From Edaphobacter dinghuensis (GTDB taxonomy: Bacteria > Acidobacteriota > Terriglobia > Terriglobales > Acidobacteriaceae): a stretch of 64,000 nt of DNA. Made by a program: the position numbers and the translations under genes. Positions 31,842 through 58,957 of the stretch are shown here, in pieces. Location: positions 248,001 to 312,000 of the forward strand of contig NZ_BMGT01000004.1 of the NCBI RefSeq assembly GCF_014640335.1, given 5' to 3'. How positions within the stretch are numbered: position 1 is the stretch's first letter; each line of letters begins with the position of its first letter. The notes beneath the pieces were generated by a model that saw only the letters and a program-made list of their open reading frames with translations, made no database searches and was not told the DNA's origin.

Positions 31842-31895
31842 ATGGGTGTTCTTACAGCGGATTCTGATGGTTGTTGTGCGGGGGGACAGTTATGA
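31842..31895 (+). CDS. 17-codon leader ORF overlapping the isomerase start
   Basis: ATG at 31842 has a strong TTGGAGG Shine-Dalgarno 5-6 bases upstream and opens a frame encoding MGVLTADSDGCCAGGQL. Its TGA (31893-31895) overlaps the ATG (31892) of the isomerase-like gene in an ATGA arrangement. The geometry is that of a translationally coupled leader peptide. There is no run of one amino acid that would suggest classical attenuation, though two adjacent Cys codons are present. It was found by direct reading and could be fortuitous. Confidence 0.45.
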   Translation: MGVLTADSDGCCAGGQL

Positions 31896-34449: not shown

Positions 34450-34866
34450 AAAGGGAGCATACCAAAGGGCAATTGCGATCAAACCTTGGATACTCGGGGC
34501 CAATGTTTCTGCACTTTAACAGGATCAGATCTCGCGCAACGCGAGCAGATTGCCAGACAAAGAATCTATTGAAGCGGTGGATGCCCTGGACATGCAGATG
34601 CCAATTTTGGGGGAAGAATAGCGTGCAACCCGTTGGCCGGTTGATATATATGAGTTTTAAATCATTAAATATGATTGCAATATGGACAATCAATCTTTTG
34701 ATGGAGTAGTATTCGTTCGTATTTGATATTGGAGTATTAGTGCAGGTGAATTTAGGAATGGCCAAGAGCGAAAAATCACTTGAAACTATTGTATACAGTA
34801 TGCAGGCGGGCTATTGAGATACAGAGATTCGTGCGTAGCGAAACTCGAAATTATGGGAGGCATCAG
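34450..34866. other. divergent intergenic region: DeoR repressor / TonB receptor
   Basis: 417 bases without a supported gene. It is AT-rich in its second half. It holds one GntR-type operator (34790-34804) and, 113 bases before that, the sequence TTAAATCATTAAATATGATT (34657-34676). The latter has a near-copy (17 of 20) in the intergenic region next to the UxuA operon at 51899-51918. Promoter hexamers cannot be assigned with confidence. Confidence 0.4.
34790..34804 (+). promoter_or_regulatory. GntR/FCD-type operator, copy 1 (TonB receptor)
   Basis: TGTATACAGTATGCA, an odd-length palindrome (TGTATAC-A-GTATGCA, one mismatched pair). It is identical to copy 3 at 45805-45819. It lies 62 bases before the TonB-receptor start. 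GntR regulators of the FCD subfamily typically bind TTGTATACAA-like sites; the GntR gene at 45061 is the obvious candidate. Confidence 0.75.
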
Positions 34867-37800
34867 ATGATGAAAAGAGTTGCTCTATTAATTTTGATTG
34901 GGTGTTCCTTCGTGCTCTGTGCGCCAGCGCAAACCACGAACGGACTCATAACAGGCACAGTGACAGACCCAAGCGGGGCGGTTGTGCCGAATTCTCAAAT
35001 TGAGATCACAAACCAGGGAACCGGTATAAAGAGAGCTACAGTAAGTGGGGCGGATGGGCACTATATTGTGCCTCAGTTGGCTCCGGGAATTTACGACATC
35101 GTTGTAACGACGGCGGGGTTTGGCCAGCAGAACCAAAAGAACGTTCAGTTGGAGGTCAACCAAAGCCTTACGCTGGATTTTAAGCTTGGGCTAGCGTCTG
35201 CTGCTCAGACTGTGCAGGTCACGACCGCTCCTCCCATGCTGAACACGACTTCCGCGACTTTGACTAATGTTGTGAATCATGAGGAAACCGTTGATCTGCC
35301 GCTGAACGGGCGCGAATTCACGCAACTGGCATTGCTGTCTCCAGGAGCATCGCCCGTAGAAAATGGCCAGCAAAGCGGCTTTGTGGTCGCACTTGGTGCT
35401 GGTGGAATCAGCCCATCCATGAATGGACAGCGCGGCGAACAGAACAACTTTACGATGGACGGTATTCTGAACAACCAGATTTACACGAATACCTGGGTGA
35501 TTGCGCCTCCTCCAGATGCCATCCAGGAGTTCAATGTCCAGTCGCACATCACAGACGCACAGTTTTCTATCAGCAGCGGTGCGAACATCAATGTTGCAAC
35601 GCGTGCCGGTACAAATACATTTCACGGTGCTGTTTGGGAGTTTTTCCGAAACGATGCACTCGATGCGCAGACCTACCCCGATACAAGCCGGTTGCCTTAC
35701 CGGCAGAATCAGTACGGTGTTTATTTTGGCGGTCCTGTGATGCTGCCGAAGGTGGTCAACGGGAAGAACAATACCTGGTTCTCCTTGTACTGGGAAGGGT
35801 TCCGCTCTGCTAAAACGACGTCCTATTTAGCAAGTGTTCTGACTCCTAATATGATCGCTGGGAATTTTGCGTCTGCCTTAGGTAGCCAGATAGGAACAGA
35901 TAGTCTGGGACGACCTGAATATTCAGGCGAAATCTATGATCCGGAGACCAGCAGACCAGATCCGAACAATCCGGGAGAATCTCTGCGCGACCCCTTCCCG
36001 GGCAATGTAATTCCCTCTGGTCGGATCAATCAGGCCAGCCTGCTCTATCTACAGAAGTACTATCCAGCACCGAATCTTAACGTTGCTGACAATGTTTTTC
36101 CCAATTACCAATTTTCAGGAGCAAATAACACCGCCAGCGATATATTTGGAATCCGACTGGATCACCAGCTTACGCAAAATGACATTATCTTTGCACGGTT
36201 CAATCGTTCGAAGCAGACACTGACTACGCCGGAAAGCCTGCCGACATATTCGCATCTGCTCATTAACTATGGGCAGCAGGCAGCGCTTGGATATACCCAC
36301 GTCTTCAACCCCAAGACGATTTTGAATTTCCGATACGGCTATTCCTACATCAACTATGACGATACGGACGAGGCCGCCGGAACCGCCTTTGCTCAATCGA
36401 TCAATTCGACTGAGGCCTTCCCGGTTCACGATGGTGTACAACTGGCTCCGGCGCTGAGCATCGCAAACGGATTTACCGGAACGAGTCAGTTCGCGGTTCC
36501 TCTTGGTCCCATGGAAGCGATGGACTATCACGTCGATTTATCAAAGGTAGTCTCGAATCATACTTTGGGCGTGGGAGGGATGTACTATCACCTTCGCAGT
36601 TACGATGATGGTTGGACGGCTGGTGCAAACTTCACACAGAACGCTACCTCTCAGGATGGTACGGCAGGACCGACAGGCTATGGCGCAGCCAGTTTCCTGC
36701 TTGGAGCGCTCGATAGTTATACCCCATGGCTTGGAAACACCGGAGCAGATCAAACCGTAAACTGGTACGGCTTCTATGCGCAGGACCAATGGCAGGCTAC
36801 GAAGAAACTCGTACTGACTGCGGGAATTCGCTGGGACTACGTCAGCCCGCCGAACTATCACAAAATTGTTTCCGGCTTGAACGTCTTAAATGGGCAGTTT
36901 ATTGTTACCGGGGCTGTGCCTCCCAGCGTTACTGAAGCTAATGGGCCTCGAGGATTCTTCAATCCCCAATACAACGGTTGGGAGCCACGCTTTGGGCTCG
37001 TGTATCAGTTTACGGACCGCACAGTCCTGCATGGCGCATTTGCAATGCTGGATGATCACAACAACACACTTATCCAGGAAAATCAGAACATTCGTTTGTC
37101 CTGGCCCAGTGGCGTTGCGGCGAATCTGACCAGTTTGGATCTTGGGATTCCGAGTACGTATTTGAATAATCTTCCACCTGCATCGTCATTGCTGGGAGGT
37201 CTCGCTCCTTATGCGAGCTACGGAGCCGACCCCGACAACAAAATCCCATATGTGTTGGAGTACAACCTTGGAGTGCAACAGCAACTATCAGCGTCAACTA
37301 CGTTGAAGTTGGATTATGTTGGTTCGCTGGGTCGACATCAATACATTGTGCCGGAAGCGAATACGGCACTTTATCCGGGAGCTGGACCAGTGCTGGCCCG
37401 GGAACCCTTCCCCCAATATGGAGGTCCGTTCTCGTTCTCATGGAATGAAATGCCTTCGAGCTACAACGCTCTTCAAGCGCAACTGCAAAAGAGCTTAAGT
37501 AATGGGCTATTTTTACAGGCGTCCTATACGTGGTCGAAGTCTATGGACTGGCAATCGGATCCATACACTAACTCAGAACCGAATTTCTATAACCTGCACA
37601 TGGACTGGGGGCCTTCGGACTACAACAAGACGAACATGGTTGTTCTGACCGAGGTCTATCAATTGCCTTTCGGCCAAAACAGAACATATTTGCGTGGAGC
37701 CAATAAATTAGTGCAGGGCGTGGCAGGTGACTGGATGCTTGGCTCGATCGTGACGCTGAACTCCGGCGCGCCGTTCAACGTATTCGCCGGTGGCGATATT

Positions 37801-38175
37801 GCCAATACCGGCTCACCGGGACAGCGTGCAGAAAGAACAAGTGCTGCTCCGTATGCTGGCTCGGGCTTTGTACAGTCACGGACAGATTGGCTCAATAAGC
37901 TGGCATTTACTCAGCCTGCGCAATATACGTTCGGAAACGAACATCGAAATGATCTTGTTGGTCCGAGGTATGACAACTTCGATGTGAACCTCTCGAAAAA
38001 CTTTCCGCTTTTCGAAAGTTCAACCCTTCAATTCCGGTCGGAGTTCTTCAATATCTTCAATCACACGAACCTCTCCAACCCTGACAACACTATTACTGAT
38101 GGATCGTTCGGCAAGATATTGAGCGCTGCGGGTTCCGGGCGGGAGATTCAATTTGCGCTGAAGATATTGTTCTAA
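34867..38175 (+). CDS. Oar-like TonB-dependent outer-membrane receptor
   Basis: A 1102-residue outer-membrane protein. A signal peptide (MMKRVALLILIGCSFVLCAPAQ) is followed by a carboxypeptidase-regulatory-like domain (~residues 25-105: GLITGTVTDPSGAVVPNSQI, YIVPQLAPGIYDIVV). Next comes a plug region with VDLPLNGREFTQLALLSPG, then a long beta-barrel ending FALKILF with the C-terminal Phe needed for BAM insertion. This is the acidobacterial Oar/TonB_dep pattern; such receptors are often tied to glycan uptake. ATG at 34867 has GGGAGG 6 bases upstream. The gene carries a GntR-type operator upstream and a terminator downstream, and precedes a secreted alpha-mannosidase, so import of a mannosidic glycan fragment is likely. 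Confidence 0.93.
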   Translation: MMKRVALLILIGCSFVLCAPAQTTNGLITGTVTDPSGAVVPNSQIEITNQGTGIKRATVSGADGHYIVPQLAPGIYDIVVTTAGFGQQNQKNVQLEVNQSLTLDFKLGLASAAQTVQVTTAPPMLNTTSATLTNVVNHEETVDLPLNGREFTQLALLSPGASPVENGQQSGFVVALGAGGISPSMNGQRGEQNNFTMDGILNNQIYTNTWVIAPPPDAIQEFNVQSHITDAQFSISSGANINVATRAGTNTFHGAVWEFFRNDALDAQTYPDTSRLPYRQNQYGVYFGGPVMLPKVVNGKNNTWFSLYWEGFRSAKTTSYLASVLTPNMIAGNFASALGSQIGTDSLGRPEYSGEIYDPETSRPDPNNPGESLRDPFPGNVIPSGRINQASLLYLQKYYPAPNLNVADNVFPNYQFSGANNTASDIFGIRLDHQLTQNDIIFARFNRSKQTLTTPESLPTYSHLLINYGQQAALGYTHVFNPKTILNFRYGYSYINYDDTDEAAGTAFAQSINSTEAFPVHDGVQLAPALSIANGFTGTSQFAVPLGPMEAMDYHVDLSKVVSNHTLGVGGMYYHLRSYDDGWTAGANFTQNATSQDGTAGPTGYGAASFLLGALDSYTPWLGNTGADQTVNWYGFYAQDQWQATKKLVLTAGIRWDYVSPPNYHKIVSGLNVLNGQFIVTGAVPPSVTEANGPRGFFNPQYNGWEPRFGLVYQFTDRTVLHGAFAMLDDHNNTLIQENQNIRLSWPSGVAANLTSLDLGIPSTYLNNLPPASSLLGGLAPYASYGADPDNKIPYVLEYNLGVQQQLSASTTLKLDYVGSLGRHQYIVPEANTALYPGAGPVLAREPFPQYGGPFSFSWNEMPSSYNALQAQLQKSLSNGLFLQASYTWSKSMDWQSDPYTNSEPNFYNLHMDWGPSDYNKTNMVVLTEVYQLPFGQNRTYLRGANKLVQGVAGDWMLGSIVTLNSGAPFNVFAGGDIANTGSPGQRAERTSAAPYAGSGFVQSRTDWLNKLAFTQPAQYTFGNEHRNDLVGPRYDNFDVNLSKNFPLFESSTLQFRSEFFNIFNHTNLSNPDNTITDGSFGKILSAAGSGREIQFALKILF

Positions 38176-38183
38176 CTGCAATT

Positions 38184-38206
38184 GGGCCGTCTTCTATAGG
38201 CGGCCC
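38184..38206 (+). terminator. terminator after the TonB receptor
   Basis: GGGCCGTC / GGCGGCCC stem (8 bp including one G-U) with a 7-base loop, followed by TTCACCTTTTG. It begins 8 bases after the receptor's stop codon. Confidence 0.6.
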
Positions 38207-38266
38207 TTCACCTTTTGCCAGTCGCGAGCCTATTCGTGAAAAGAAGTAGTAGAGAGATCGGTGGCC

Positions 38267-41200
38267 ATGTTCAATAAGAAAGCAGTTACAGGTTTTGTTC
38301 TGTTTGGGGTGTGTTTACTGGCGGGGTACAGTGCCTTTGGAGACACGAACGAGAGTAATCAGAATGCAGTCGTCTTTAAGCTTGGAAGTTTCGACCGCTC
38401 TTCATTCGAGTTCGCATCGGACAGCCCGAAGCAGCCAGTGAACTTTATTGTTGGCCAAAGCAATCCGGCAAAGGATTGGTATGCAACGCAACCGGCGGTG
38501 TTGAGTTCCGCTTCCGGGCAGACAAGAACGGATGTAGCCTCCGCACCCAGAGCAATCCACTTTTCTATCGATAGTAGACCGGAGGATAGGTATCGGCTGC
38601 GCGTATCCTTATTAATTGAAGCCGCTAGTGTGCCTGCTCTCCGCATCGATATTAATGGACGGCGGGGCATGCTTTATCTCCATCCCAAGCTCGATTACAG
38701 CAATGGCGATCAGGGCGACTCTTTTTATCCCGCATATTCACATGCTGAAACTACATTCGAATTTCCTGCCGGCTATCTGAAGCATGGCGAAAATTCAATT
38801 GCGTTCCAGGCGGTTGAGCAGGCAGATCAGGCTGTACCAGACGCCAGTCTTACTTATGATGCGATCGAGCTTGATCGTGTGACTGGTGTGGGTACTCCGA
38901 ATGCCTCTTCAGCTTTGGTTGTGCCTACGATCTTCTTCCGCCAAGAGGGCGGTAGCATCAAGGAACAGGTCGACGCCTTTATCCAGTCTGCAAAGCCATT
39001 TAAAGCCGGTGCCGAAGTTGAGCTGGCGGTCAACGGCAAGACCTATCACCAAAACGTGCAAGGCAGTCAGGACTTCGGCGAAGAGAAGGTGAGCTTTTTA
39101 GTCCCTGAGTTTACGAAAGATACGCATGCTCAACTTACCTGGAAGAGTGTGGGGCGTCCGCAACACAGCGATCAAACCATCAGTCCACAAAAAAAATGGA
39201 CGATCTTCATCGTGCCTCATATCCACGTAGACGTGGGTTACTCAGATTACCAGCCCAAGGTAGCGGCAATTCAGAGCCGAGATATTGATGAAGCGTTGGA
39301 CATGATCGATAAAAATCCCAGCTTCAGGTATAGCCTGGATGGGGCATGGGATCTGGAGCAGTTTTTGAAGACACATACTGCTGCCGATCAAGCTCGTGCG
39401 ATCAAGGCCGTGCAGGAACAAAAACTCTATGTGCCCGCGCAGTATGCGAATCTGCTGACGGGATTCCCAACATCTGAAACACTGATTCGCTCCCTCTATC
39501 CAAGCGCAAATTTCAGCCGGGAGCATGGATCACCATTCAATTACGCAAATATCACCGATGTTCCTTCCTATTCGTGGTCCTATGCTTCGGTCTTGGCTGC
39601 TGCAGGAATCCACTATCTTGCCGGCGGGAGCAATAACTATCGCGCTCCTGTTCTGCTTCAGGGAAGATTAAATGAGAATTCGCCGATGTGGTGGGAGGGA
39701 CCGGACGGAAACAAAGTTCTACTATGGTATTCGCGTATTTATCAGCAGATGCAGATGCTCTTTGGATTGCCTCCGGTACTGGATGCCGGTCGCGACACAC
39801 TGCCATTGTTCCTGCAGATGTATGAGCATCCGGGCTATGTTGCCGATGAGACGATCATGTACGGCACTCAGGTAGAGAACACGGATCTCTTTCCGCAGCA
39901 GTCGGAGCTAGCGCAAAAGTGGAATGAAACCTACGCCTATCCGCATCTGAAGTACTCCGGCTTTCACGACGCTCTTCAGTCGATTCAGCAGCAGTTTGGC
40001 AACAACATTCCCAGTATTCGCGGCGACGGTGGCCCCTACTGGGAAGATGGTATTGCATCGGATGCTTATTATGCCGGTATGGAGCGCTGGAACGAGGGCC
40101 GAGCTCCAACAGCGGAAAAGTTCGCCACGCTCACTTCGATCGTGAATCCGCGCACGCGAGCCGATAAGGCTTCTCTCGATCGCATGTGGAGAAACATGGT
40201 CTTGATGGATGAGCATACCTGGGACTCGTACAACAGTACTTCTGATCCGACCAGTATGGAAGCGGTTAAACAGCTAGCCGTGAAGGATCAGTATGCCGTG
40301 AACGCGCAGGCTTTGGCTGATTTCATCACACAGAACACCATGGCAAGTCTGACCAGTGCCATTCCGGTTGGGGCAGGGAAGGTGATCATCTTTAACAGTC
40401 TCAATTGGAAACGGAGTGGATTAGTTTCGATTGATATCGACAAAAAAACCGAGCTGGTTGACACAACAACCGATCAGAAGGTCCCGTTCAAAATTCTCCA
40501 GAGCGGCCCCAATTTCGATCACATTCAGTTTGTGGCTACCGATATCCCGGCCGTTGGATACAAGGTCTACAAGATGCAGCCGTCAACATCTCCTGCACCG
40601 AGTACAGCAACGCAACAGAACCTGACGATGGAGAATTCTTATTATCGAGTGACACTTGATCCATCAACTGGCGCAGTCAAGAGCATCTATGACAAGCAGT
40701 TGAACCACGAGTTGGTAAACGAAAGCAGCCCGTATCGCTTTGGGCAGTATCTGTACGTCACCGGGGGCGACAAAGCTTCGAACACGGTTCTGCAATACAG
40801 CCATGTTTATCCGAAGCCTGCACTGGAAGTCCATCCTGCAGAGGGCGGCAGCTTAGTCTCCGTCGCTCAGACGCCTTATGGGTGGGTTGCGCGCATGCGG
40901 AGTCACTCTGTTAACACTCCTGCTATAACCAGCGAGATTCGGCTCTTTGATCGGACCAAGAAGATCGAGTTTGTAGAGGATGTGGAGAAGAAAGATGTCG
41001 ACACGAAAGAGGGCGTATATTTTGCATTCCCGTTCGCGATGGGCCATCCGAAGTTTGAATACGAGATTCAAAATGGAGTAGTCAACCCGGCGAAAGATAT
41101 GTATCCGGGTGCAGGTCATGAGTGGTTTTCTGTCCAGCACTGGATTGCATTGCAGGAAGGCGGCGTTTCTGTCGGTCTGCTTCCGCTGGATGCAGGCTTG

Positions 41201-41824
41201 GCAACGTTTGGCGACATCAATCGAGGACAATGGCCGGATCATTTTGGAGATCGCCCAGGTTCTGTCTTCTCTTACATCATGAACAACTATTGGGACACGA
41301 ACTATCGAGCCGGGCAAGGGGGACACTTCAAATTTCACTACGTCCTTACAAGCGCATCTTCCACCAATGCGTCTGAGCTGAGCCGTCTGGGATGGGAGGA
41401 GATCACTCCGCTGGAAGCGGACATCGTCACAACTCAGGACAAAGCTCTCTCGTCACCCGAGGGAGAAGATCACGGCGCCAGTCCCTCGAATTCGGTTGCC
41501 GGTGCCGGTTCGCCGTGCGTTCTAGATCCGAAGGAAGACAGTTTTCTAAACGTGGACGATCCTAATGTTCTATTTGAGACCTGGAAACCTGCAGAAGACG
41601 GCAACGGCACTATCCTCCGTTTCCTTGATATAGGAGGCGATCAACGAACGGTAACTGTTCATGTCCCGCTCCTGCATATTGAAGAGGCATGGCAGAGCAA
41701 TGCAGTGGAAAAGGATGGAGAGAAGCTTTCTCTTTCGGGAGATCATGATTTCAGCTTTGTCATCCACCCACATGAAATTGCCTCAATTCGGATCGTCGGG
41801 TCCGATGCATGCAAGGCCAATTGA
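38267..41824 (+). CDS. secreted GH38 family alpha-mannosidase
   Basis: 1186 residues with an N-terminal signal peptide (hydrophobic residues ~8-22). An N-terminal extension of ~300 residues, probably carbohydrate-binding beta domains, precedes the catalytic domain. The zinc motif is PHIHVDVGY (His320, Asp322), the candidate nucleophile Asp431 lies in NITDVPSYSWSY, and a further zinc ligand is probably His650 in MDEHTWDS. C-terminal GH38 beta domains follow (VTLDPSTGAVKSIYDKQLNHELV is the typical start). It hydrolyses alpha-mannosides outside the cytoplasm. It follows the TonB receptor and shares all three active-site motifs with the DUF5054-type protein at 45834. ATG 38267 is preferred to GTG 38261. 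Confidence 0.9.
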   Translation: MFNKKAVTGFVLFGVCLLAGYSAFGDTNESNQNAVVFKLGSFDRSSFEFASDSPKQPVNFIVGQSNPAKDWYATQPAVLSSASGQTRTDVASAPRAIHFSIDSRPEDRYRLRVSLLIEAASVPALRIDINGRRGMLYLHPKLDYSNGDQGDSFYPAYSHAETTFEFPAGYLKHGENSIAFQAVEQADQAVPDASLTYDAIELDRVTGVGTPNASSALVVPTIFFRQEGGSIKEQVDAFIQSAKPFKAGAEVELAVNGKTYHQNVQGSQDFGEEKVSFLVPEFTKDTHAQLTWKSVGRPQHSDQTISPQKKWTIFIVPHIHVDVGYSDYQPKVAAIQSRDIDEALDMIDKNPSFRYSLDGAWDLEQFLKTHTAADQARAIKAVQEQKLYVPAQYANLLTGFPTSETLIRSLYPSANFSREHGSPFNYANITDVPSYSWSYASVLAAAGIHYLAGGSNNYRAPVLLQGRLNENSPMWWEGPDGNKVLLWYSRIYQQMQMLFGLPPVLDAGRDTLPLFLQMYEHPGYVADETIMYGTQVENTDLFPQQSELAQKWNETYAYPHLKYSGFHDALQSIQQQFGNNIPSIRGDGGPYWEDGIASDAYYAGMERWNEGRAPTAEKFATLTSIVNPRTRADKASLDRMWRNMVLMDEHTWDSYNSTSDPTSMEAVKQLAVKDQYAVNAQALADFITQNTMASLTSAIPVGAGKVIIFNSLNWKRSGLVSIDIDKKTELVDTTTDQKVPFKILQSGPNFDHIQFVATDIPAVGYKVYKMQPSTSPAPSTATQQNLTMENSYYRVTLDPSTGAVKSIYDKQLNHELVNESSPYRFGQYLYVTGGDKASNTVLQYSHVYPKPALEVHPAEGGSLVSVAQTPYGWVARMRSHSVNTPAITSEIRLFDRTKKIEFVEDVEKKDVDTKEGVYFAFPFAMGHPKFEYEIQNGVVNPAKDMYPGAGHEWFSVQHWIALQEGGVSVGLLPLDAGLATFGDINRGQWPDHFGDRPGSVFSYIMNNYWDTNYRAGQGGHFKFHYVLTSASSTNASELSRLGWEEITPLEADIVTTQDKALSSPEGEDHGASPSNSVAGAGSPCVLDPKEDSFLNVDDPNVLFETWKPAEDGNGTILRFLDIGGDQRTVTVHVPLLHIEEAWQSNAVEKDGEKLSLSGDHDFSFVIHPHEIASIRIVGSDACKAN

Positions 41825-41967
41825 ACGGACTAGCGGAGTATATGGAATTACGTGTAAAAGGTATGTGAAAGGGGCTGCATGGACTTGCGTTTCAACTGGG
41901 ATTGAGTGTCCTTCGATCCTTCGTCTGAAGCGTCCCAATGAGCCATTGGAGGTATTTTCCTTCACGC

Positions 41968-43734: not shown

Positions 43735-43753
43735 AGCAGGAATGGAGAGCTGC

Positions 43754-44959
43754 ATGATGCGGCGCAGTCGGCAGATAATTTGTCGAGTCTGCCTCACTCT
43801 GACTTTTATCTTCATTGCCGGTGCCATCAGTCCGACTTGGGCGCAGAGTAGCGCACAACAAAACGAGAATGTTTGCGATGTGCACAGCACACTGCACCGT
43901 GTCGACGGACTCTTGAAGCTGCATCGGGAAGCAGAAGCGCAGCTTCTACTTCAGAGGGTAGTGAAATGTTCGCATCTGTCCCAGATCGAAACTTTTAATA
44001 TTGCCTGGTCTTATGGCAGAATGCATGACTTCAAGACAGCTCTCAGGCTCTTTGCTACCGTCGATGCGAATGTGCCCGACCTGCAAACGCATGCTTATGC
44101 GGTTGCACTCGGCCAGTTTGAGATGAGCGATTATCCGTCGGTGATTAAAACTCTCAAAACAGTGCAGGATAAACAAGCGCTAAACCCTGACTGCGTGAAT
44201 CTTCTCGCTGTATCGTATGCGAAACTGGGCCAATATCAGGATGCATACGTGCTTCTTCAGGGACAGATTCAGGAGCATCCGCGGGATTTATTTTCCTATC
44301 TGAACCTGATAACGCTGTTGACCGATGCTGGCCAGTTTGCTGAAGCGCAAAAGGTGGCGACCGAGTGTGTTGCGGTTTTTCCGCAAAACTCGGAGGTGTT
44401 TGTTGTCCGGGGCGCCACGGAGACCTTGCTGGGGCAGTTGGATAAGGCACGCAGCGACTTTGACAATGCGGTGAAAATTTCACCCGAAAAGAAGGATCCT
44501 CGATTCTTTTTAGCACTAACTGACTACAAGTTAAGCAACTACGCAGCGGCGGTCGCTGATCTGAGAAGTGCAATGCATGCTGGAGTTATCAGTGCGGATT
44601 TAGAGTACCTGTTGGCTGAATGCATGCTGAAACTCGATCCGACGAAACCGGCCGATGCACTTGCCGAACTGGATATGGCAATCCGGCTTGATGAAAATTC
44701 CGCGCCTTCCCGCACACTGCGGGGCAAGCTTCTTTTAGAAGAAGGGAATCCGAAGAAAGCGGTTGCGGATTTAGAGATCGCTCACAAGATCGACCCTGCG
44801 ATGCGGAGTGCTACCTATAATTTGGCTCGCGCGTATTTTGCCGTCGGCAAACAAAAGGAAGCGCAGACTCTTTATCAGCAGTTACAAGAACAGACAACGG
44901 ACACGGTTACAGAGTTGAGTGATCGGAGAATTAAGCAAGTTCTGGCGGGAGGTCCGTAA
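43754..44959 (+). CDS. secreted tetratricopeptide-repeat protein
   Basis: A signal peptide (basic start, hydrophobic VCLTLTFIFIAGAIS, cleavage near WAQS) is followed by about ten TPR-like helix pairs, for example NLLAVSYAKLGQYQDAYVLL, LNLITLLTDAGQFAEAQKVA and YNLARAYFAVGKQKEAQTLY. It is a periplasmic protein-protein scaffold. Paired with the CRTAC1-type gene (20 bases upstream, same strand) it matches a recurrent acidobacterial CRTAC1-TPR arrangement. ATG at 43754, preceded by GGAGAG, is favoured over ATG 43742. Confidence 0.8.
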   Translation: MMRRSRQIICRVCLTLTFIFIAGAISPTWAQSSAQQNENVCDVHSTLHRVDGLLKLHREAEAQLLLQRVVKCSHLSQIETFNIAWSYGRMHDFKTALRLFATVDANVPDLQTHAYAVALGQFEMSDYPSVIKTLKTVQDKQALNPDCVNLLAVSYAKLGQYQDAYVLLQGQIQEHPRDLFSYLNLITLLTDAGQFAEAQKVATECVAVFPQNSEVFVVRGATETLLGQLDKARSDFDNAVKISPEKKDPRFFLALTDYKLSNYAAAVADLRSAMHAGVISADLEYLLAECMLKLDPTKPADALAELDMAIRLDENSAPSRTLRGKLLLEEGNPKKAVADLEIAHKIDPAMRSATYNLARAYFAVGKQKEAQTLYQQLQEQTTDTVTELSDRRIKQVLAGGP

Positions 44960-45001
44960 GTTTGCATTATGTGAGATCGAACAATGATCCGAGAAGTATA
45001 T

Positions 45002-45016
45002 TGTATACTGTAAACT
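45002..45016 (+). promoter_or_regulatory. GntR/FCD-type operator, copy 2 (autoregulatory)
   Basis: TGTATACTGTAAACT: the left half-site TGTATAC is intact, the right half (GTAAACT) is degenerate. It sits just upstream of a consensus -10 box (TATAAT, 45022-45027), covering the -35 position of that promoter, 44 bases before the GntR start. A bound repressor here would block RNA polymerase, so negative autoregulation is predicted. Confidence 0.65.
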
Positions 45017-45021
45017 CTGCC

Positions 45022-45027
45022 TATAAT
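45022..45027 (+). promoter_or_regulatory. -10 box of the GntR gene
   Basis: A perfect TATAAT 34 bases before the start codon. The -35 region falls within operator copy 2 (TTGTAT at 45001-45006, spacer 15 bases, a weak match). Confidence 0.5.
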
Positions 45028-45060
45028 CGACATTTATGTTTGAAGGAGAGCTGTAACTGA

Positions 45061-45753
45061 ATGCCGCCCACAACCCAGCTCTCGGAGCTTCCCGTAGCTA
45101 CCTTGAAGACTCATGTCGTCGAGCGAATCCGCAATGCAATTCTGACGGCTGTCTTCAAGCCTGGTGAACGACTCAATGAAACTCATCTTGCACAGCAATT
45201 TGGAGTAAGCCGGATTCCGGTGCGTGAAGCTTTATTTCAGCTCCAGGAGCAGGGGTTGGTGATGAACCATCCTCGCCGCGGCATGTTCGTTGTCATGCTC
45301 AGCGAGGAGGATGTGCAAAAGATCAACAGCCTGCGGATTGTCCTTGAGGCTGAGGCCATCAAATTGTGTCGCGCGAATCTAATACCCAGCTACGAAAAGC
45401 GGCTTGAAGCGCTGGTGGAAAAGATGGAGAGCACGACCACAGAGTCTGACTTCGATGCTTCAAAGTTGGATCTGGAATTTCACCGGACAGTTTGGGCGGT
45501 ATCTGGAAACTCCTATCTGGAGAAGACGTTGAATTCCTTGGTGACGGTACTGTTCTCGCATCAGGCGCTTGCTTATATGACAGCACATGATCCGCTTCAT
45601 TGGCCGTTGCGTCATCACCGCGATCTTCTGGATGTGATTCTAGGCAAGTCAAACATGAGTCCGGAGGCCGCGATTGTGAAACATCTTCGTCATCGCTATA
45701 CGAATCCAGAGCGCTATTCCAGCCTGGCCCATACGCAGGTTACCCTCACCTAA
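45061..45753 (+). CDS. GntR family regulator, FadR/FCD subfamily
   Basis: A winged helix N-terminal domain (VVERIRNAILTAVFKPGERLNETHLAQQFGVSRIPVREALFQLQEQGLV) is followed by an all-helical FCD ligand domain. Metal-binding positions are visible as LDLEFHRTVW and HRDLLDVIL (Asp/His pattern). The length of 230 residues is normal. FCD regulators often control sugar-acid genes (UxuR, ExuR, LgoR) and bind TTGTATACAA-like palindromes. The shared operator in front of the TonB receptor, this gene, the DUF5054-type gene and the UxuA operon makes it the predicted master regulator of the block. Confidence 0.92.
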   Translation: MPPTTQLSELPVATLKTHVVERIRNAILTAVFKPGERLNETHLAQQFGVSRIPVREALFQLQEQGLVMNHPRRGMFVVMLSEEDVQKINSLRIVLEAEAIKLCRANLIPSYEKRLEALVEKMESTTTESDFDASKLDLEFHRTVWAVSGNSYLEKTLNSLVTVLFSHQALAYMTAHDPLHWPLRHHRDLLDVILGKSNMSPEAAIVKHLRHRYTNPERYSSLAHTQVTLT

Positions 45754-45804
45754 GCCTGTGGCATGCAAGCGCTACTTATAGGAAAGAAGTACGTTCATTA
45801 TTTC

Positions 45805-45819
45805 TGTATACAGTATGCA
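45805..45819 (+). promoter_or_regulatory. GntR/FCD-type operator, copy 3 (DUF5054-type gene)
   Basis: TGTATACAGTATGCA, identical to copy 1. It lies only 14 bases before the start codon, just upstream of the AGGAGA ribosome-binding site. It is thus probably downstream of, or overlapping, the transcription start, acting as a roadblock or start-site operator. Confidence 0.75.
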
Positions 45820-45833
45820 AATAGGAGAAAGAT

Positions 45834-47981
45834 ATGGATCGCCGCGACTTTCTGAAGGGAATGACTATCGCTTCCATTAGCCCGCTTGCTGCTCATGCAA
45901 GCGCACTGGAGGCTCAATCGCAGGAGACGGTGAATACCGTATATGTCGTTTCCAAATGTCATCTCGATATCGGCTTTACGGACATCGAGCGAAATATTTT
46001 ACTGACGTATTTTGATGACTATCTTCCGCGCGCAATGGACCTGGCAGCAACTTTCCGCAACTCACAGGGAGAAGAGCGTTATGTATGGACGATTGCGTCA
46101 TGGATGATTTATCAGTACCTGGAGCAGGCATCGACGAAAGATCGCAAGCGAATGGAAGATGCCATCCTGGCCGGTGACATCGCCTGGCATGCGATGCCAT
46201 TTACATGGCAGTCGGAGATGTTGGACCGCTCCTTGATCTCATCTGCATTGAAGATCTCTGCTGTCCTTGATCAGAGGTTCGGTAAAAAAACAATTGCGGG
46301 CAAATTAACTGATGTGCCAAGCCATACCCGCGGGTTGATTGCTCCTGTAGTAGAAGCGGGCGTTGAGTTTTTGGATATTGGCGACAATCCAGGATGCAGA
46401 GCTCCTGATGTGCCTTTCCTTCCTGCGAGTGGCACGGCTGCTCGTTCAGCAACGGAGGGTGCCGAACCGCTGGAGCCTCACTGCCACTTGTTCAATTGGC
46501 GCAATCCAGAAGGGCAGCAGGTCATGGTGCTTTATCATCCGCTGGGATATGGCGGTACGGTGGCAGTTCCAGGAACGGACATCGCAGTTTCAATCCGAGT
46601 TGCGATCGACAACTCCGGTCCTCATACTGCACAGCAGGTGAAAGAGTATTACGCAGCCTTACGTAGCCGCTTCCCCGGAGCGAGAATTGTTGCCACGAAT
46701 CTGAGTACGGTTGCCACTGCGCTGCGTAAGGTGCGCGATCGTCTGCCAGTCGTTACGCAGGATATAGGAGACACCTGGATTTATGGCCCGGCGAGCGATC
46801 CGGGCAAGGTTGCGCGGTATCGCGAGCTATGCCGCTTGCGGCAGGAATGGCTGACCGCGGGACGACTCCATGCTGGAGATGCGGTGGACATGGCATTTAC
46901 GTCTAGATTGATCCTGATGCCCGAACATAATTGGGGACTCTCTACAGGGCAGTATCTGAAGAACCCAGAGATCTATAACGTCAGTCAGCTTCGCAAAGCG
47001 AGGATTGAAAAACCTGAATTTCAAAAGATGGACGATGAGTGGGGTGCTAAGCGGCGCAACGTGGATATTGCGGTCCTGACACTTCCTTCTGCACTGCAGC
47101 AAGAGGCAAACTCCAGACTGGAGACTCTCAAGCCCAGTCTTCCTGATCGGCAGTCGCTAAATGAGTTCAACCCTGCGAGTAATCTCCAGACATCAAATTT
47201 TGATGTCTCTCTCGATCCTGCGCATGGGGCGATCGTAAAGCTGAGAGACAGGAAGACTGGTCGTGAATGGGCATCCTCAGAGCATCCGCTCGCTCTTTTC
47301 AGATATCAGACATTTACAAGCGCGGACTTTGCTCGTTTCAATGCCCAATACAATACTCAGGAATTTGCCTACAATGATTTTGGCAAGCCGGGGATGAATC
47401 AGTATCGTGCCGAGAGCAAAACTTGGGAACCGGAATTGCAGCAGTGTAGAGCTGGAGAGGATGCCAAGGGGCACCGTATCGTTGTAGACCTGCAGATGCC
47501 GAAGCCTGATCCATCGTTAGTAGATTTAATTGGCTGGCCAGAACATTCGACGGTCGAACTGTCGTTTCCCTCCGACGAGCGTGCTGTGTACATCACCTTA
47601 CAATGTTTTCGAAAGCGCCCCAACCGCATGGCAGAGGCGATGTGGTTTTCCTTCTCGCCGAATGCTCCTGACCCCAATGGATGGCAGTTTGAAAAGGTGA
47701 ATCAGTCGATATCGCCGCTGGATGTAATCGAAAACGGCAATCGCCACTTACATGCGGTTACAAAAGACGTTAGCTATCGCGATGAAAAGGGAAGTTTCAC
47801 GCTGGAAACGCTGGATGCACCCCTTGTGGCTCCCGGCCAGAGATCGCTGTTGGACTTTAATAACAAACAGCCGGACATGCGCGAGGGCGTGCATGTAAAT
47901 CTCTACAACAATCTTTGGGGCACCGCCTTTCCGCAGTGGTACGGAAGTGACATGCGGTTTCGTTTTGTAATTAGGCTGTGA
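45834..47981 (+). CDS. Tat-exported DUF5054-type protein, GH38-related
   Basis: 715 residues beginning MDRRDFLKGMTIASIS, a clear twin-arginine signal. The rest matches the DUF5054 style of GH38-related proteins. Three active-site segments are shared with the alpha-mannosidase at 38267: SKCHLDIGFTD (His43, Asp45), LTDVPSHTRGL (Asp160), and PEHNWGLSTG (His365). These fit zinc ligands plus catalytic nucleophile, so a glycosidase acting on mannosides or similar sugars is predicted; this is not an established function of the family. AGGAGA precedes ATG 45834, and operator copy 3 lies just upstream. A strong hairpin ends the gene. Confidence 0.82.
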   Translation: MDRRDFLKGMTIASISPLAAHASALEAQSQETVNTVYVVSKCHLDIGFTDIERNILLTYFDDYLPRAMDLAATFRNSQGEERYVWTIASWMIYQYLEQASTKDRKRMEDAILAGDIAWHAMPFTWQSEMLDRSLISSALKISAVLDQRFGKKTIAGKLTDVPSHTRGLIAPVVEAGVEFLDIGDNPGCRAPDVPFLPASGTAARSATEGAEPLEPHCHLFNWRNPEGQQVMVLYHPLGYGGTVAVPGTDIAVSIRVAIDNSGPHTAQQVKEYYAALRSRFPGARIVATNLSTVATALRKVRDRLPVVTQDIGDTWIYGPASDPGKVARYRELCRLRQEWLTAGRLHAGDAVDMAFTSRLILMPEHNWGLSTGQYLKNPEIYNVSQLRKARIEKPEFQKMDDEWGAKRRNVDIAVLTLPSALQQEANSRLETLKPSLPDRQSLNEFNPASNLQTSNFDVSLDPAHGAIVKLRDRKTGREWASSEHPLALFRYQTFTSADFARFNAQYNTQEFAYNDFGKPGMNQYRAESKTWEPELQQCRAGEDAKGHRIVVDLQMPKPDPSLVDLIGWPEHSTVELSFPSDERAVYITLQCFRKRPNRMAEAMWFSFSPNAPDPNGWQFEKVNQSISPLDVIENGNRHLHAVTKDVSYRDEKGSFTLETLDAPLVAPGQRSLLDFNNKQPDMREGVHVNLYNNLWGTAFPQWYGSDMRFRFVIRL

Positions 47982-48013
47982 CCTGGGTGGACTGCAGATA
48001 GGACAAAACAACG

Positions 48014-48045
48014 CTCTTCGGTACATTCATGAATGCACCGAAGAG
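48014..48045. terminator. bidirectional terminator hairpin
   Basis: A near-perfect inverted repeat of 16 pairs with one mismatch (CTCTTCGGT... / ...ACCGAAGAG). It lies between the convergent DUF5054-type and RhaT-like genes. T-runs follow on both sides (TCTTT on +, TTGTTTT on -). Confidence 0.75.
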
Positions 48046-48055
48046 TCTTTACTGT

Positions 48056-49084
48056 CTACCGATAGTAATTGCCGATGCATATTAGGACCATCGACGAAAG
48101 CAGGCATGCGAGGCTTCCGGTAAGCGCTGTCCATGCGCTTGTGCCAGCCTGCTTCCACTCGCCTTGAAACAGGCCGGCAGCAGTAGAGCTCAGAACAATC
48201 ATGCCGACGAATAGGGCCCAACCAACCGAAGAGCCTAAAGCTCCAAGCAGCGAAGGGGAGATTGCCATCCCCCAAAGTGCGACGCTCGCTGAGTAGAGAA
48301 TCGCCATTGCAAGAACAAGTCCCCAGTAAAGATAACTACGATTTATCTTGTAATGACGGCAGGTGCGATTCTTCCATAAGAGGTATATACAGTAGCCGCA
48401 ATTTGGAATTGCTCCTCCAAAAAGAATCAGGGACAGTACGGCATTCGATGCTCCAACCGAGGATGCGCTGCCATAGTGAATCGCAGAGTCGAAAAGACGA
48501 TGTTCCCAGGGCATTGCCATCGCAACAGGCAAAAATCCGGAAAGTATTCCTCCGAGCACCGCCAGGATTGAACCCAAGATACGTTTTGAGGGAGCCTGAG
48601 ATACATCCACCTGAGTTTTTCTGTTCCATTTGCCGGCTAGAAATCCTAAAACGACAGAGAGAGTTGAAAGTGCTACGCCAGCGAGAACAAGCCAGTCACC
48701 TGTCGAGCCCAGCAGAGAACGGTTGAACAACAGCCGAGGGACCAGAATGCCGACAGCATTCATGGATCCGACAAGCAGGGCAAAACTCAAGGTAAGACCG
48801 GCGTAGACGATAGAGATGCCAAATAATAGTGATCCTGTATAAACGAGCACACCACAGGCTATTGCTGCAGCCATGTCAGCAAGATGCGCATGCCGACATG
48901 CAAGCAGGAGCTGAGGCACGGTATACCAGGCGATGATTCCAGGAAAGAGCGCGAGAGATAAAAAGCTAAATGGGAGCCAGTTGTTTTCCCACGCCCATAC
49001 CTTGTTAGCTTTCATCGGCAGTGGAAACAATCCGTTCATCACCCCGGCGATAGAAGCAATTGCAATCCCGGCGCTGATATTCAC
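48056..49084 (-). CDS. RhaT-like sugar:H+ symporter (DMT superfamily)
   Basis: A 343-residue membrane protein with about 10 TM helices. IASIAGVMNGLFPLPMKANKVWAWENNWLPF is the signature N-terminus of L-rhamnose-proton symporter family proteins, and the length equals that of RhaT (~344). GTG at 49084 overlaps the UxuA TGA (GTGA), which sets the start; a longer reading from 49192 would overlap uxuA by 112 bases. It is the last gene of the operon. Members transport L-rhamnose or related sugars; in a mannonate-dehydratase operon it may carry the pathway's sugar or sugar acid. Confidence 0.85.
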   Translation of the reverse strand: MNISAGIAIASIAGVMNGLFPLPMKANKVWAWENNWLPFSFLSLALFPGIIAWYTVPQLLLACRHAHLADMAAAIACGVLVYTGSLLFGISIVYAGLTLSFALLVGSMNAVGILVPRLLFNRSLLGSTGDWLVLAGVALSTLSVVLGFLAGKWNRKTQVDVSQAPSKRILGSILAVLGGILSGFLPVAMAMPWEHRLFDSAIHYGSASSVGASNAVLSLILFGGAIPNCGYCIYLLWKNRTCRHYKINRSYLYWGLVLAMAILYSASVALWGMAISPSLLGALGSSVGWALFVGMIVLSSTAAGLFQGEWKQAGTSAWTALTGSLACLLSSMVLICIGNYYR

Positions 49085-50184
49085 TGGTTTGTTCCTGGCC
49101 GATGAGAGAGATGTTCTCTTTCGAGATTCATAAGCGCCGCGCGCATGAATCCCAGTGTGTGCGCCATGCCGGCATGCCAGGGAGCAGTACAACTCATCTG
49201 CGGAGTGTGGTCGGGAATAAGAACGCCATCAAATCCGTTGTGATCGAGGATGGACAGGATCCTGAGCATATCGATATCGCCGTCGTCGATAAAGGCTTCT
49301 TTGTAATTTGGAACCTTGCCGCGAACATTGCGGAAATGAATGTAAGCGATGCGATGCTGCTTGCTATATCGATCAACAGTGCTATAGATATCACCTTCGC
49401 TCATTTCAGCAAGCGTTCCCAGGCAAAACTCAAGGCCGTTTCTGGAGCTGTGATTGATGTCTATCAACCTTTGATACATATCTGGTTGATAGACCAATCT
49501 AGGCTGCTGACGCATCGTTGGCAGAGGCGGATCATCGGGATGGGCGGCAAGCGTTACGCCGGCTTCTTCCGCAACAGGAAGAACCTCTTCGAGAAATCGC
49601 TCGAGTCTCGTCCATAGTTCTTCGTGTGAAATAGAGGTAAGTGTGCCCGCGGGAGCATGCTGATCGTAAATCATGTTCCAGACCATGCCGTTTGGAATGG
49701 GTGTCTCGACAGGTCCATCGAGACCCACAGACACGGCACCACCTCTTGCGAATGGTCCCTGGATACGTCCGCAGACACCGGCCAGACTGAAGTTATAGCC
49801 GAGGATCGGGATTCCGGCTTCTCCCATTCGGCGAATGATGGTTTTGACATTCTCAATATGAGCAGCCCGCTTGGGGCCGTCGAGCAAAATATCGTGCCAA
49901 TGGGCTGGGTCGAGGTTTTCGATTGCTTCAAGGCGAAGCCCGAAAGCTTCTATCTCGGTCTTTAAGCCGCTAAGCTCTTTTTGTGTCCAGATATGCTCCG
50001 GATCTCCGGCGATTCCCCACGGGCTATCTTTTCCACCTGTAGGTTGATTGTTGGCCGGGTTAGAAGCACCGCCCTTGAAGTAATCAACCAAGTGGACGAC
50101 GACGTGAGTACATCCTGCCTGAGCAGCGAAGGCATAGTGCTCGGGGGTTAACATGTGGCGATATAAGCCAAGACCAAGTTTCAT
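49081..50184 (-). CDS. uxuA: D-mannonate dehydratase (UxuA family)
   Basis: A TIM-barrel metalloenzyme that dehydrates D-mannonate to 2-keto-3-deoxygluconate. Recognisable blocks are TLAAHPDDPPLPT, GLEFCLGTLAEM, IAYIHFRNVRGKVPNYKEAFIDDGDIDM and GVLIPDHTPQM, matching the UxuA family and covering its metal ligands. The length of 367 is in the lower part of the family range. It starts 9 bases after the SDR stop and overlaps the RhaT-like start. Together with the SDR it fits the fructuronate/mannonate part of hexuronate degradation, although uxaC, kdgK and kdgA are not in the window. Confidence 0.9.
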   Translation of the reverse strand: MKLGLGLYRHMLTPEHYAFAAQAGCTHVVVHLVDYFKGGASNPANNQPTGGKDSPWGIAGDPEHIWTQKELSGLKTEIEAFGLRLEAIENLDPAHWHDILLDGPKRAAHIENVKTIIRRMGEAGIPILGYNFSLAGVCGRIQGPFARGGAVSVGLDGPVETPIPNGMVWNMIYDQHAPAGTLTSISHEELWTRLERFLEEVLPVAEEAGVTLAAHPDDPPLPTMRQQPRLVYQPDMYQRLIDINHSSRNGLEFCLGTLAEMSEGDIYSTVDRYSKQHRIAYIHFRNVRGKVPNYKEAFIDDGDIDMLRILSILDHNGFDGVLIPDHTPQMSCTAPWHAGMAHTLGFMRAALMNLEREHLSHRPGTNQ

Positions 50185-50193
50185 ATCTAGGAA

Positions 50194-50970
50194 TCATCCA
50201 ATCTTCGGGATGCTGACGCCGAAATCTACTCGGAGTATCTGACCCGTTATCTCCCCTGCCATCTCGGAGCAGAGGAATACAAATGCATCCGCAATTGCTT
50301 CTGGCGAATTGCGCTTTCCCATCGGAGCAACGCGAAGTACGAATTCTCGATACTCCTGGTCCTCTTCAAAGACCTTGAGCGAACTACCTGCAGCCACATT
50401 CCCCGGAGAGATCGCGTTGACCCGTATGCCCGCCGGGGCATATTCAAGGGCGAGGCAGCGGGTAAGGTGCTCTAATGCAGCCTTTGCTGTAGCGTAGGCC
50501 GGTATCCGGGTATGTGGAATTTGTGCCACATAGGACGAAGTGAAGATCAGGTGGCCGGTAACTTTGCGGCGCACCCATTGCGCAAGGAAAGCGCGCGCCA
50601 GATAAGTTTGTGCAAAATAATTGAACTTGAAGATGCGATCAAAGTCAGCTTCTGCTGTTTCGGCGAACGGATGAAGTCCACATCCTCCAGCATGGCCCAA
50701 AACAGTGTCCAGGTTTGAGTAGCGACCCATCATGTCATGGACGATTGCTTCTACTTCAGATGAATTTGTTACATCCATCTGGTGATAGACGTACCTTGAA
50801 GGGTGAAGCTTCCAACTCTCGATTACAGAAAGAGCCTCTGCATTGGATTTTGCGTCAGTGAGAATAAGAAAGGCGCCGGCTTCTTCGAGCTTGCGGACGA
50901 TATGTTCGGCAATCGCACCAAGAGCGCCTGTAATCAGGATGGATTTTTGCCGCAGGTCGATGTTGATCAT
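50194..50970 (-). CDS. SDR oxidoreductase, possible mannonate/fructuronate oxidoreductase
   Basis: A classical short-chain dehydrogenase of 258 residues. The Rossmann motif ILITGALGAIAEHIV is a variant of TGxxxGxG; LGHAGGCG takes the NNAG position; the catalytic Ser lies in LIFTSSYVAQ and Tyr-x3-Lys in AYATAKAALEHL. ISPGNV and a C-terminal GQILRVDFGVS complete the fold. In Bacillus-type hexuronate operons an SDR (UxuB/YjmF) reduces fructuronate to mannonate beside UxuA, so that role is plausible here; oxidation of mannose is an alternative. ATG at 50970 has AAGGTG 6 bases upstream. Confidence 0.85.
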   Translation of the reverse strand: MINIDLRQKSILITGALGAIAEHIVRKLEEAGAFLILTDAKSNAEALSVIESWKLHPSRYVYHQMDVTNSSEVEAIVHDMMGRYSNLDTVLGHAGGCGLHPFAETAEADFDRIFKFNYFAQTYLARAFLAQWVRRKVTGHLIFTSSYVAQIPHTRIPAYATAKAALEHLTRCLALEYAPAGIRVNAISPGNVAAGSSLKVFEEDQEYREFVLRVAPMGKRNSPEAIADAFVFLCSEMAGEITGQILRVDFGVSIPKIG

Positions 50971-51080
50971 GAGATTCACCTTGCTGTTGTACTGAGAATT
51001 TCAGTGCTCCACTGTAATCGCGTCTTTAATGTCCGCAGAGTAATGGAGAACTATTCCGTCCAAACCCAATCGAGAGCCCT

Positions 51081-51773
51081 TCACATAATTCCGTGTTCGG
51101 AATATGCGGCAACTGCACTTAGTCCAGCTTCAAGGGATTTCTTGACCAACTTTTCGCCACGAGCTTTTTCAAGAGCCTTGCTGAAGACTTCTCGCTCTGC
51201 TTCCTTCGGAACAATGCAAACGCCATCAATATCGCCAAAGATAATATCGCCTGGGTGAATCCTGACAGCTCCTATCTCAATAGGCACTCGGAAATCGTGC
51301 ACCTTATAGCGAGGGGCAGAGTCCTGACCGTAGGAGCCATAGCCAAAGGTCGGAAAATTCATTCGAATCAATCCCTTTGTGTCCCGGTAATAGCCGTCTA
51401 AAACCGCTCCTCTTGCTCCCAGTTTTGTGGCTCGGGTCGCCATCATTTCACCCCATGTGGCATTTCTCGGAGCAGATCCGGTGCAGATATAGACTTCGCC
51501 TTTTTGCAAATCATCGACGGCCTCAAGCATCAGTCCGAAAGGCTTTTCCATTAGCCGGTTTGCTGAGCCCGGAGATGACTCCTCAAAGACGTTTCCGCCT
51601 AAGACGGGCATCGCGCGGCCTATAACAATCGCCTCATTGAGGATGGGCCTGATTTGAGGAGGGAGAAATTGATGGAAGAGGCAGAGTTTGTCCATGATGT
51701 CGCCGACGACACAAGTAAACAATTCACGTTCTGCAAGCGTAAAAAGTTCGTCATCTGTACTCCAAGCAGTCAT
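51081..51773 (-). CDS. RraA-like family protein (HMG aldolase-type)
   Basis: A 231-residue protein of the RraA/4-hydroxy-4-methyl-2-oxoglutarate aldolase superfamily. VVGDIMDKLCLFHQFLPPQIRPI is the N-terminal signature and GARGAVLDGYYRDTKGL holds the Arg-Asp of the active site. GDIIFGDIDGVCIVPKEAE is the conserved metal/phosphate-side motif. Homologues in sugar-acid operons are thought to be aldolases or dehydratases. ATG at 51773 has AAGGAG about 6 bases upstream. It is the first gene of the uxuA operon and carries operator copy 4 in its leader. Confidence 0.85.
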   Translation of the reverse strand: MTAWSTDDELFTLAERELFTCVVGDIMDKLCLFHQFLPPQIRPILNEAIVIGRAMPVLGGNVFEESSPGSANRLMEKPFGLMLEAVDDLQKGEVYICTGSAPRNATWGEMMATRATKLGARGAVLDGYYRDTKGLIRMNFPTFGYGSYGQDSAPRYKVHDFRVPIEIGAVRIHPGDIIFGDIDGVCIVPKEAEREVFSKALEKARGEKLVKKSLEAGLSAVAAYSEHGIM

Positions 51774-51838
51774 GTGCTCTCCTTGCTTGCCTATGGTCAG
51801 AAAAAGAAGCAAAGCTATAGCTATACTTTTTCGATAAT

Positions 51839-51853
51839 GGCATACTGTATACA
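51839..51853 (-). promoter_or_regulatory. GntR/FCD-type operator, copy 4 (UxuA operon / ROK kinase)
   Basis: On the minus strand TGTATACAGTATGCC, 14 of 15 positions identical to copies 1 and 3. It lies 65 bases before the RraA-like start, in the region divergent with the ROK kinase, so it could control both directions. The rest of the 280-base region is AT-rich; a TTAAATCATTTAATGTGATC element at 51899-51918 resembles one near the TonB promoter. Confidence 0.72.
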
Positions 51854-52053
51854 ATATGTCAAAATATAAAATCTCAAATTATGATTCTATAAAGCATATT
51901 AAATCATTTAATGTGATCTTATCTTCATAATAGAGGTTGCTTGGCATGCTTGAGGACTTGCAGATGTAGAAACCGGTAATGAGCGTAAGAGTACGTGCGG
52001 CTATGACGGTTACGAATCGGCGAAGTGCATGAGGGGCCAGACGGGAAATCTTA

Positions 52054-58781: not shown

Positions 58782-58957
58782 AGAGGCTCCATTGGAAGAC
58801 CAAGTTATCGAAGAGCTATCACTATACAACACCCTGCACTTCTGTCTTGATCTCTAGGCAGTGAAGCGATCATAAGTCTCACCCAGGGACACTGCATCCT
58901 TTTTCACACAGATTGTTGCCCCTTCCTAGTCATCTTCAAAAAGTCCAAATGGAAGAA

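Follow-up and report, generated by a model that had tools for sequence, protein, structure and literature searches.

Previous studies described the FCD regulators of the GntR family as proteins that bind carboxylic acids (PMC4494728) and whose operators carry GT and AC 2 or 3 nt apart (Suvorova et al., PMC4494728). According to the sections of that account cited here, UxuR, ExuR, DgoR and GntR are FCD members controlling sugar-acid catabolism, and in the sites of UxuR and GntR the GT and AC stand 2 nt apart. The FCD repressor Atu1419 of Agrobacterium fabrum, a VanR member according to its authors, binds ATGTATACAT, and an arginine of its recognition helix contacts a G of the operator (PMC7797058). 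For mannose itself, oxidation through mannonate dehydratase was proposed in the archaeon Natronoglomus mannanivorans (PMC10963439), and a cell-free route that converts mannose to lactic acid is reported (PMC6901390). Here we analysed a 64,000-nucleotide stretch of Edaphobacter dinghuensis (contig NZ_BMGT01000004.1, positions 248,001 to 312,000; hereafter the window, whose own numbering is used throughout), in which one short operator recurs upstream of four units of a gene block, and we consider it likely that the FCD GntR gene within this block (45061-45753) encodes the local repressor of a four-unit mannoside-utilisation regulon, whose binding, repression, inducer and pathway we infer. This would be a complete, testable glycan-use regulon for Acidobacteriota, a group in which, to our knowledge, little regulation of glycan use has been worked out; no acidobacterial paper on a GntR operator or regulon with a mannosidase was found in the literature searched.

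The regulator gene that the original prediction had placed inside the block is indeed of the FCD type: the protein encoded at 45061-45753 (plus strand) has an N-terminal winged helix-turn-helix (PF00392, E 6.8e-20, 70.9 bits over a cut-off of 27), a C-terminal FCD domain (PF07729, E 2.9e-15, 57.2 over 24.3 bits), and the recognition helix SRIPVREAL. The NCBIfam models for UxuR and ExuR score it far below their equivalog cut-offs (31.6 against 442 and 22 against 396 bits), and the best model, phnR_burk, also stays below its own (110.1 against 271.5 bits). Among solved structures, a match at E 9.5e-10 was obtained with entry 6z74, which we take to be Atu1419. The system predicted here shares with Atu1419 the operator core TGTATACA, autoregulation, and palindromes that cover the -10 or lie in the -35/-10 interval (PMC7797058), whereas the operator described in the cited part of that work is 10 bp long and has no outer half-box, the controlled pathway is hydroxycinnamate degradation, the effector is a folate, and the sequence similarity between the two regulators is low. 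Unlike the UxuR, ExuR, DgoR and GntR systems, the target set here includes mannosidases and RraA. In the literature searched, one paper pairs TGTATACA with GntR (the Atu1419 work, PMC7797058), and in four papers TGTCGACA and GntR co-occur by a word search.

The operator was found as TGTATACAGTATGCA, with 0 mismatches, at 34790-34804 (plus strand, operator 1), where the ATG (34867) of the TonB-dependent receptor gene lies 62 bp downstream, and at 45805-45819 (plus strand, operator 2), in the gap that separates the gntR stop from the DUF5054 gene, immediately ahead of the ribosome-binding site of the latter. Operator 3, TGTATACAGTATGCC, lies before the RraA operon on the minus strand (51839-51853) with 1 mismatch to TGTATACAGTATGCA, and the weaker operator 4, TGTATACTGTAAACT, lies before gntR (45002-45016, listed on the plus strand), with 3 mismatches to TGTATACAGTATGCA when matched on the minus strand and 2 to the palindromic form TGYATACWGTATRCA, which fits operators 1 and 2 exactly. 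The originally predicted sites are thus confirmed: two copies are identical, a third differs at one position and the fourth is weaker, and they precede the TonB receptor, the DUF5054 gene, the RraA-SDR-uxuA-rhaT operon and gntR. All four predicted sites contain the core GTATAC, of the GT-N(2-3)-AC type of the FCD/FadR subfamily. Nine matches to TGTATACAGTATGCA at up to 3 mismatches were present in the window, both readings of palindromic sites being included, against a mean of 0.66 and a maximum of 3 in 100 shuffles. Over the whole genome (4,535,631 bases, 9 contigs), TGTATACAGTATGCA matched the three block sites at up to 1 mismatch and one unrelated site at 2 mismatches, with 1 match for the reversed-pattern control, and the palindromic pattern TGYATACWGTATRCA found only operators 1-3 at up to 1 mismatch. 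The 15-mer is thus not a frequent or randomly placed word of this 4.54 Mb genome, and chance words as the origin of the three strong sites were rejected by the window shuffles and the genome-wide rarity.

In the congener G357 the whole block and all four sites are kept, the gntR copy at 3 mismatches, and the GntR protein is 96% identical; three of these four are the only sites at up to 1 mismatch in that genome. Operators 1, 2 and 3 are conserved at 15/15 positions each and operator 4 at 13/15, so that identity over the four upstream regions is 58/60 within operators versus 508/821 in the remainder (Fisher p = 6e-10, positions taken as independent; part of the G357 RraA region borders another gene, and non-homologous DNA may account for some of the lower identity in the remainder). 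Among 398 genomes of the family, a sample drawn from a larger group, 17 had a match to GntR at E <= 1e-35, the window's own included. An SDR ortholog lay within about 1.5 kb of UxuA at 17 of 30 UxuA loci in the family (window and G357 included), and 16 UxuA loci read more widely had RraA in 13 and SDR in 12; we take RraA-SDR-UxuA to be a conserved operon in the family. GH38 relatives near RraA and UxuA were also present in G196 and G326. In G214 (locus L086), DUF5054, RraA and UxuA surround a different GntR (35% identity over 62 residues), and a different perfect palindrome, TATGATAGTATCATA, was seen by eye, with no statistics, before DUF5054 (L086 9700-10560); a swap of regulator is possible there. 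The G357 locus (L082 2211-8686) has additional GH38, SDR and RhaT homologs between RraA and ROK, which the window lacks.

GntR orthologs, 43-68% identical, occurred in other Acidobacteriota and in Sphingomonadales, mostly beside other genes. We scanned their loci with a consensus, TGTATACWGTATACA, symmetrised from the window's sites; it is therefore an independent probe for the ortholog loci, though not for the window or G357. Eight sites at up to 2 mismatches were found in 5 of 14 Acidobacteriota loci (shuffle mean 0.04), 6 of the 14 carrying a SRAP or SRTP recognition helix, and 8 sites in 5 of 8 Sphingomonadales loci (shuffle mean 0.02). Grouped by helix, 10 of 16 SRIP loci held 16 sites at up to 2 mismatches to TGTATACWGTATACA (shuffle mean 0.05), 10 of which lay outside every mechanically called open reading frame (ORF). 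These identity-grouped and helix-grouped counts, like the dinucleotide counts given below, leave out L035 (on the contig of L168) and L170 (on the contig of L038), and the scans did not take in L051 and L158; L043-L047 are near relatives, and L171 and L172 hold two GntRs each, one with another helix (SRVA, SRIQ). None of the 6 loci of more distant GntRs had a site at up to 2 mismatches, and homologous UxuA loci without this GntR had a site in 0 of 13 in the control scan, which covered 13 of the 16 fetched loci and left out L138, L140 and the site-bearing locus L128 of G157, and in 1 of 16 once these three were added. Likewise, G196 has close homologs of the receptor, GH38, DUF5054, RraA and UxuA, has no GntR match at E <= 1e-35, and showed no operator site in the 40 kb read. 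Since the ortholog loci are rich in sites and the UxuA loci without this GntR are nearly empty, the operator goes with the regulator and not with the target genes, and the protein that binds the sites is very probably the local FCD GntR. The genes adjoining the sites in ortholog loci likewise belong to sugar catabolism (ILVD_EDD dehydratase, SDR, MFS, TonB receptor), and ThuA and gntR genes also adjoin sites. In four SRIP loci (L168, L036, L171, L172) a gntR gene directly follows a site matching at up to 3 mismatches, and such positions would fit autoregulation. The prediction that one operator at four promoters defines a regulon is supported by the rarity of the three strong sites, the congener conservation and this tracking with GntR orthologs.

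The best promoter of the block precedes RraA: TTGACA-17-CATTAT with an extended -10 (51834-51862, minus strand). Operator 3 takes up the whole spacer, a textbook repressor position that fits repression. This promoter pattern has 2 matches in the region versus a shuffle mean of 0.9, and by eye the TTGACA and the 17-bp spacing are kept in G357 and G157. We propose that a GntR dimer would read the core palindrome GTATAC via SRIPVREAL, that the operator would be extended by an outer half-box (GTATGC/GTAAAC) at a distance of 7 bp, and that GntR on operator 3 would occupy the -35/-10 interval and block RNA polymerase. Upstream of the TonB receptor, a promoter-like pair, TGGACA-18-TAGTAT (34683-34712, plus strand), lies 78 bp upstream of operator 1, although such matches have a shuffle mean of 1.5 and the pair is hence weak by itself; with this pair as the promoter, the 5' untranslated region may include operator 1. 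At operators 1 and 2, GntR would most likely stop initiation, or elongation from upstream, and at operator 4 it would repress its own gene. The likely inducer would be a sugar acid derived from mannose, D-mannonate or 2-keto-3-deoxygluconate (KDG), and because of this common inducer, mannoside uptake and breakdown would be switched on together. The promoter-like pair lies inside a block of 64 bp (34656-34719) that is identical in G357 amid diverged DNA, and an additional regulator, conceivably the divergent DeoR, may bind there.

Several observations weigh against the proposed regulon or parts of it. The promoter scan recognised no promoter overlapping operators 1 and 2; it also recognised none for the gntR and DUF5054 units and listed no -35/-10 pair on the gntR strand. 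The TATAAT before gntR (45022-45027) is not kept in G357 and was rejected as a firm promoter, and the suggestion that the operator overlaps the -35 of a gntR TATAAT promoter was not confirmed, the gntR promoter being weak. At up to 2 mismatches the palindromic pattern gave 7 forward matches genome-wide and 8 in the control, a signal equal to background, and the gntR site (operator 4) therefore rests on conservation and not on rarity. Six of the 16 SRIP-locus sites lie inside a mechanically called ORF, and 12 of 22 ortholog loci had no site at up to 2 mismatches in the fetched DNA, some of it short and 6 of the 22 loci having another helix. Although G082 and G326 each encode a GntR ortholog, their RraA/UxuA loci lack a site at up to 3 mismatches, so that control of UxuA is not general, and the ortholog seems to serve other genes in these two genomes. 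G157 carries the operator before RraA, at TTGACA-17-CAATTA as read by eye, but its best GntR match reaches no more than 28% identity (E 1.6e-16). Frame changes interrupt the SDR and RhaT matches of this operon (L128 8927-12407) and the contig ends soon after; our guess is a decaying copy of the operon, sequencing faults being also possible. Finally, a UxaC is encoded elsewhere in the Edaphobacter genome (C2:607421-608749), so UxuA could serve hexuronates through the glucuronate route.

The G157 operator without a close GntR ortholog would also suit another binder, such as the DeoR-type protein encoded at 33658-34449, whose gene is divergent beside operator 1 and the TonB receptor and is kept in G357, or another GntR of the genome, which has 3 other matches to the regulator at E <= 0.001. 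We regard this as very improbable, because GntR orthologs of other Acidobacteriota and of Sphingomonadales have the operator nearby, in loci (L035-L051) that show no DeoR match (tblastn E <= 1e-8) and share with the window's genes no more than distant matches to the receptor, ASPIC or SDR, and because 15 of the 16 UxuA loci without this GntR lack the operator at up to 2 mismatches. The DeoR gene as binder accordingly found no support. It is also unlikely, if less remote, that GntR binds and activates, or acts dually, at some targets: the missing promoter matches over operators 1 and 2 would allow it, whereas the positions are those typical of repression, with operator 3 between -35 and -10, operator 2 just before the ribosome-binding site, and the best promoter candidate located ahead of operator 1. 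Repression by the local GntR thus stays the reading we prefer.

A further alternative concerns the register of the operator. The 15-mer had been called a palindrome of the kind bound by FCD GntR proteins, and the FCD type is supported, while the protein probably reads GTATAC, whose GT and AC are 2 nt apart, plus an outer half-box, rather than a 15-bp dyad. GTATAC is the likely dimer unit because the subfamily spacing of GT and AC is 2 or 3 nt (PMC4494728) and Atu1419 binds ATGTATACAT (PMC7797058), as those sources give it; the outer box would be an extension, perhaps for a second dimer. Sites aligned on the core read (T)GTATAC-W-G(T/A)ATRC, an alignment that left out L042, L043 and L047 and kept only sites whose outer box matched GTATAC at 4/6 or more positions, so that the AT-type outer box is present by construction and gives no independent proof. 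That the operator is instead a dyad centred on A/T, of which GTATAC is only part of one half, we hold to be doubtful, with perhaps a third of the weight or slightly less: TGYATACWGTATRCA is exact at operators 1 and 2 and all 15 bp are conserved in G357 at three sites, whereas a sister clade shows an AT to CG change in the core, with 12 matches to TGTCGACWGTATACA at up to 2 mismatches (shuffles 0.12) against 8 for the form changed in both halves (shuffles 0.42), and a gap of 2 nt from GT to AC is already described for the subfamily (PMC4494728).

This sister clade was seen in a tree of 41 GntR rows, which left out L035 and L051 and in which one branch (support 95/93) separates 19 SRIP from 13 SRAP rows; the other 9 rows belong to neither group. 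We counted GTnnACWGT over all 16 central dinucleotides: in the 16 SRIP loci AT accounted for 11 of 27 (shuffles 0.33) and CG for 1 (3.10), and in the 11 SRAP loci CG accounted for 24 of 44 (shuffles 1.97) and AT for 4 (0.57), with some sites counted on both strands. The words TGTCGACWGTATACA and TGTATACWGTATACA, which differ at two positions only, behaved similarly: in the 12 SRAP/SRTP loci, where the SRTP locus L177 was grouped with SRAP (it was left out of the dinucleotide count), the 12 matches to TGTCGACWGTATACA were in 8 of 12 loci, and TGTATACWGTATACA had 0 matches at up to 2 mismatches and 4 at up to 3 (shuffles 0.57), while SRIP loci had 7 matches to TGTCGACWGTATACA (shuffles 0.10) and 16 to TGTATACWGTATACA at up to 2 mismatches. 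The SRAP/GTCGAC pattern was noticed and counted in the same loci, a bias that the 16-dinucleotide count lessens and does not remove. The differing residue, Ile in SRIP and Ala in SRAP, is helix-turn-helix position 39, equal to FadR Thr46 (position 0 being FadR Ser7), and position 39 is reported as correlated with the central operator nucleotides, Ile in the YtrA subfamily preferring A/T there (PMC4494728). It is conceivable, at clearly less than even chances, that this was a natural change of specificity (Ile with a GTATAC and Ala with a GTCGAC centre, the outer half-box kept) and that a SRIP regulator was recruited from an oxidative sugar-acid pathway onto a mannosidase module that works in other genomes without this regulator. 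Because the tree needs a single change, the co-variation is one evolutionary event, and since it is a single event seen after the fact, we offer the specificity change as a hypothesis. Sister clades differing in a recognition-helix residue and the operator centre would make the FCD reading code testable by one substitution. A SRAP-clade locus (L174 10820-10841) has overlapping GTCGAC-type boxes at 7-bp spacing.

The first unit comprises the TonB-dependent receptor (34867-38175, plus; Pfam CarboxypepD_reg and beta-barrel) and a GH38 alpha-mannosidase (38261-41824, plus; Pfam GH38 N, C and C2), which are probably on one transcript, perhaps together with an FG-GAP/ASPIC-UnbV protein (41938-43734, plus) and a TPR protein (43706-44959, plus), both assigned by Pfam. 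The other units would be gntR itself, the DUF5054 gene (45834-47981, plus; PF16477) and, on the minus strand, the operon of an RraA-like protein, the proposed KDG aldolase (51081-51770), an SDR oxidoreductase, the proposed mannose dehydrogenase (50194-50979), a UxuA-family protein, the proposed mannonate dehydratase (49081-50184), and a RhaT-family sugar transporter (48056-49099), all placed by family matches. The UxuA-family protein scores 175 bits over the 23.7-bit cut-off of PF03786 and matches the solved mannonate dehydratase 3ban at E 1.1e-35; it falls below the NCBIfam cut-offs of PRK03906 (146.5 vs 191) and TIGR00695 (104.8 vs 199.55). Mannose would presumably be oxidised to mannonate by SDR, dehydrated to KDG by UxuA and cleaved to pyruvate and glyceraldehyde by the RraA-like aldolase. 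Natronoglomus mannanivorans likewise has mannan genes with a mannonate dehydratase and an RraA-family gene; it differs, as described in the cited part of that study, in being an archaeon, in phosphorylating KDG before it is cut, in its beta-linked mannans and in its IclR regulator (PMC10963439).

For the DUF5054 protein, PF16477 was the only Pfam family at E <= 0.001, with no sequence match to the GH38 family among them, no NCBIfam model matched, the best solved entry by sequence was at E 0.38, and the name was not mentioned in the literature searched. Its AlphaFold2 model (mean pLDDT 83) has a predicted GH38-like fold: 40 of the 43 best Foldseek matches were GH38 alpha-mannosidases (best E 1.2e-22), with TM scores by query length of 0.49-0.61, root-mean-square deviations of 8-15 A and identities of 8-12%. 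The GH38-like model together with the true GH38 enzyme points to alpha-mannosides as substrate and would attach DUF5054 to mannoside breakdown. Beside the block we observed a 592-aa ORF (31871-33649), whose 587-aa reading has no Pfam match, and, downstream of the block, a very large ORF of 1861 aa (53247-58832).

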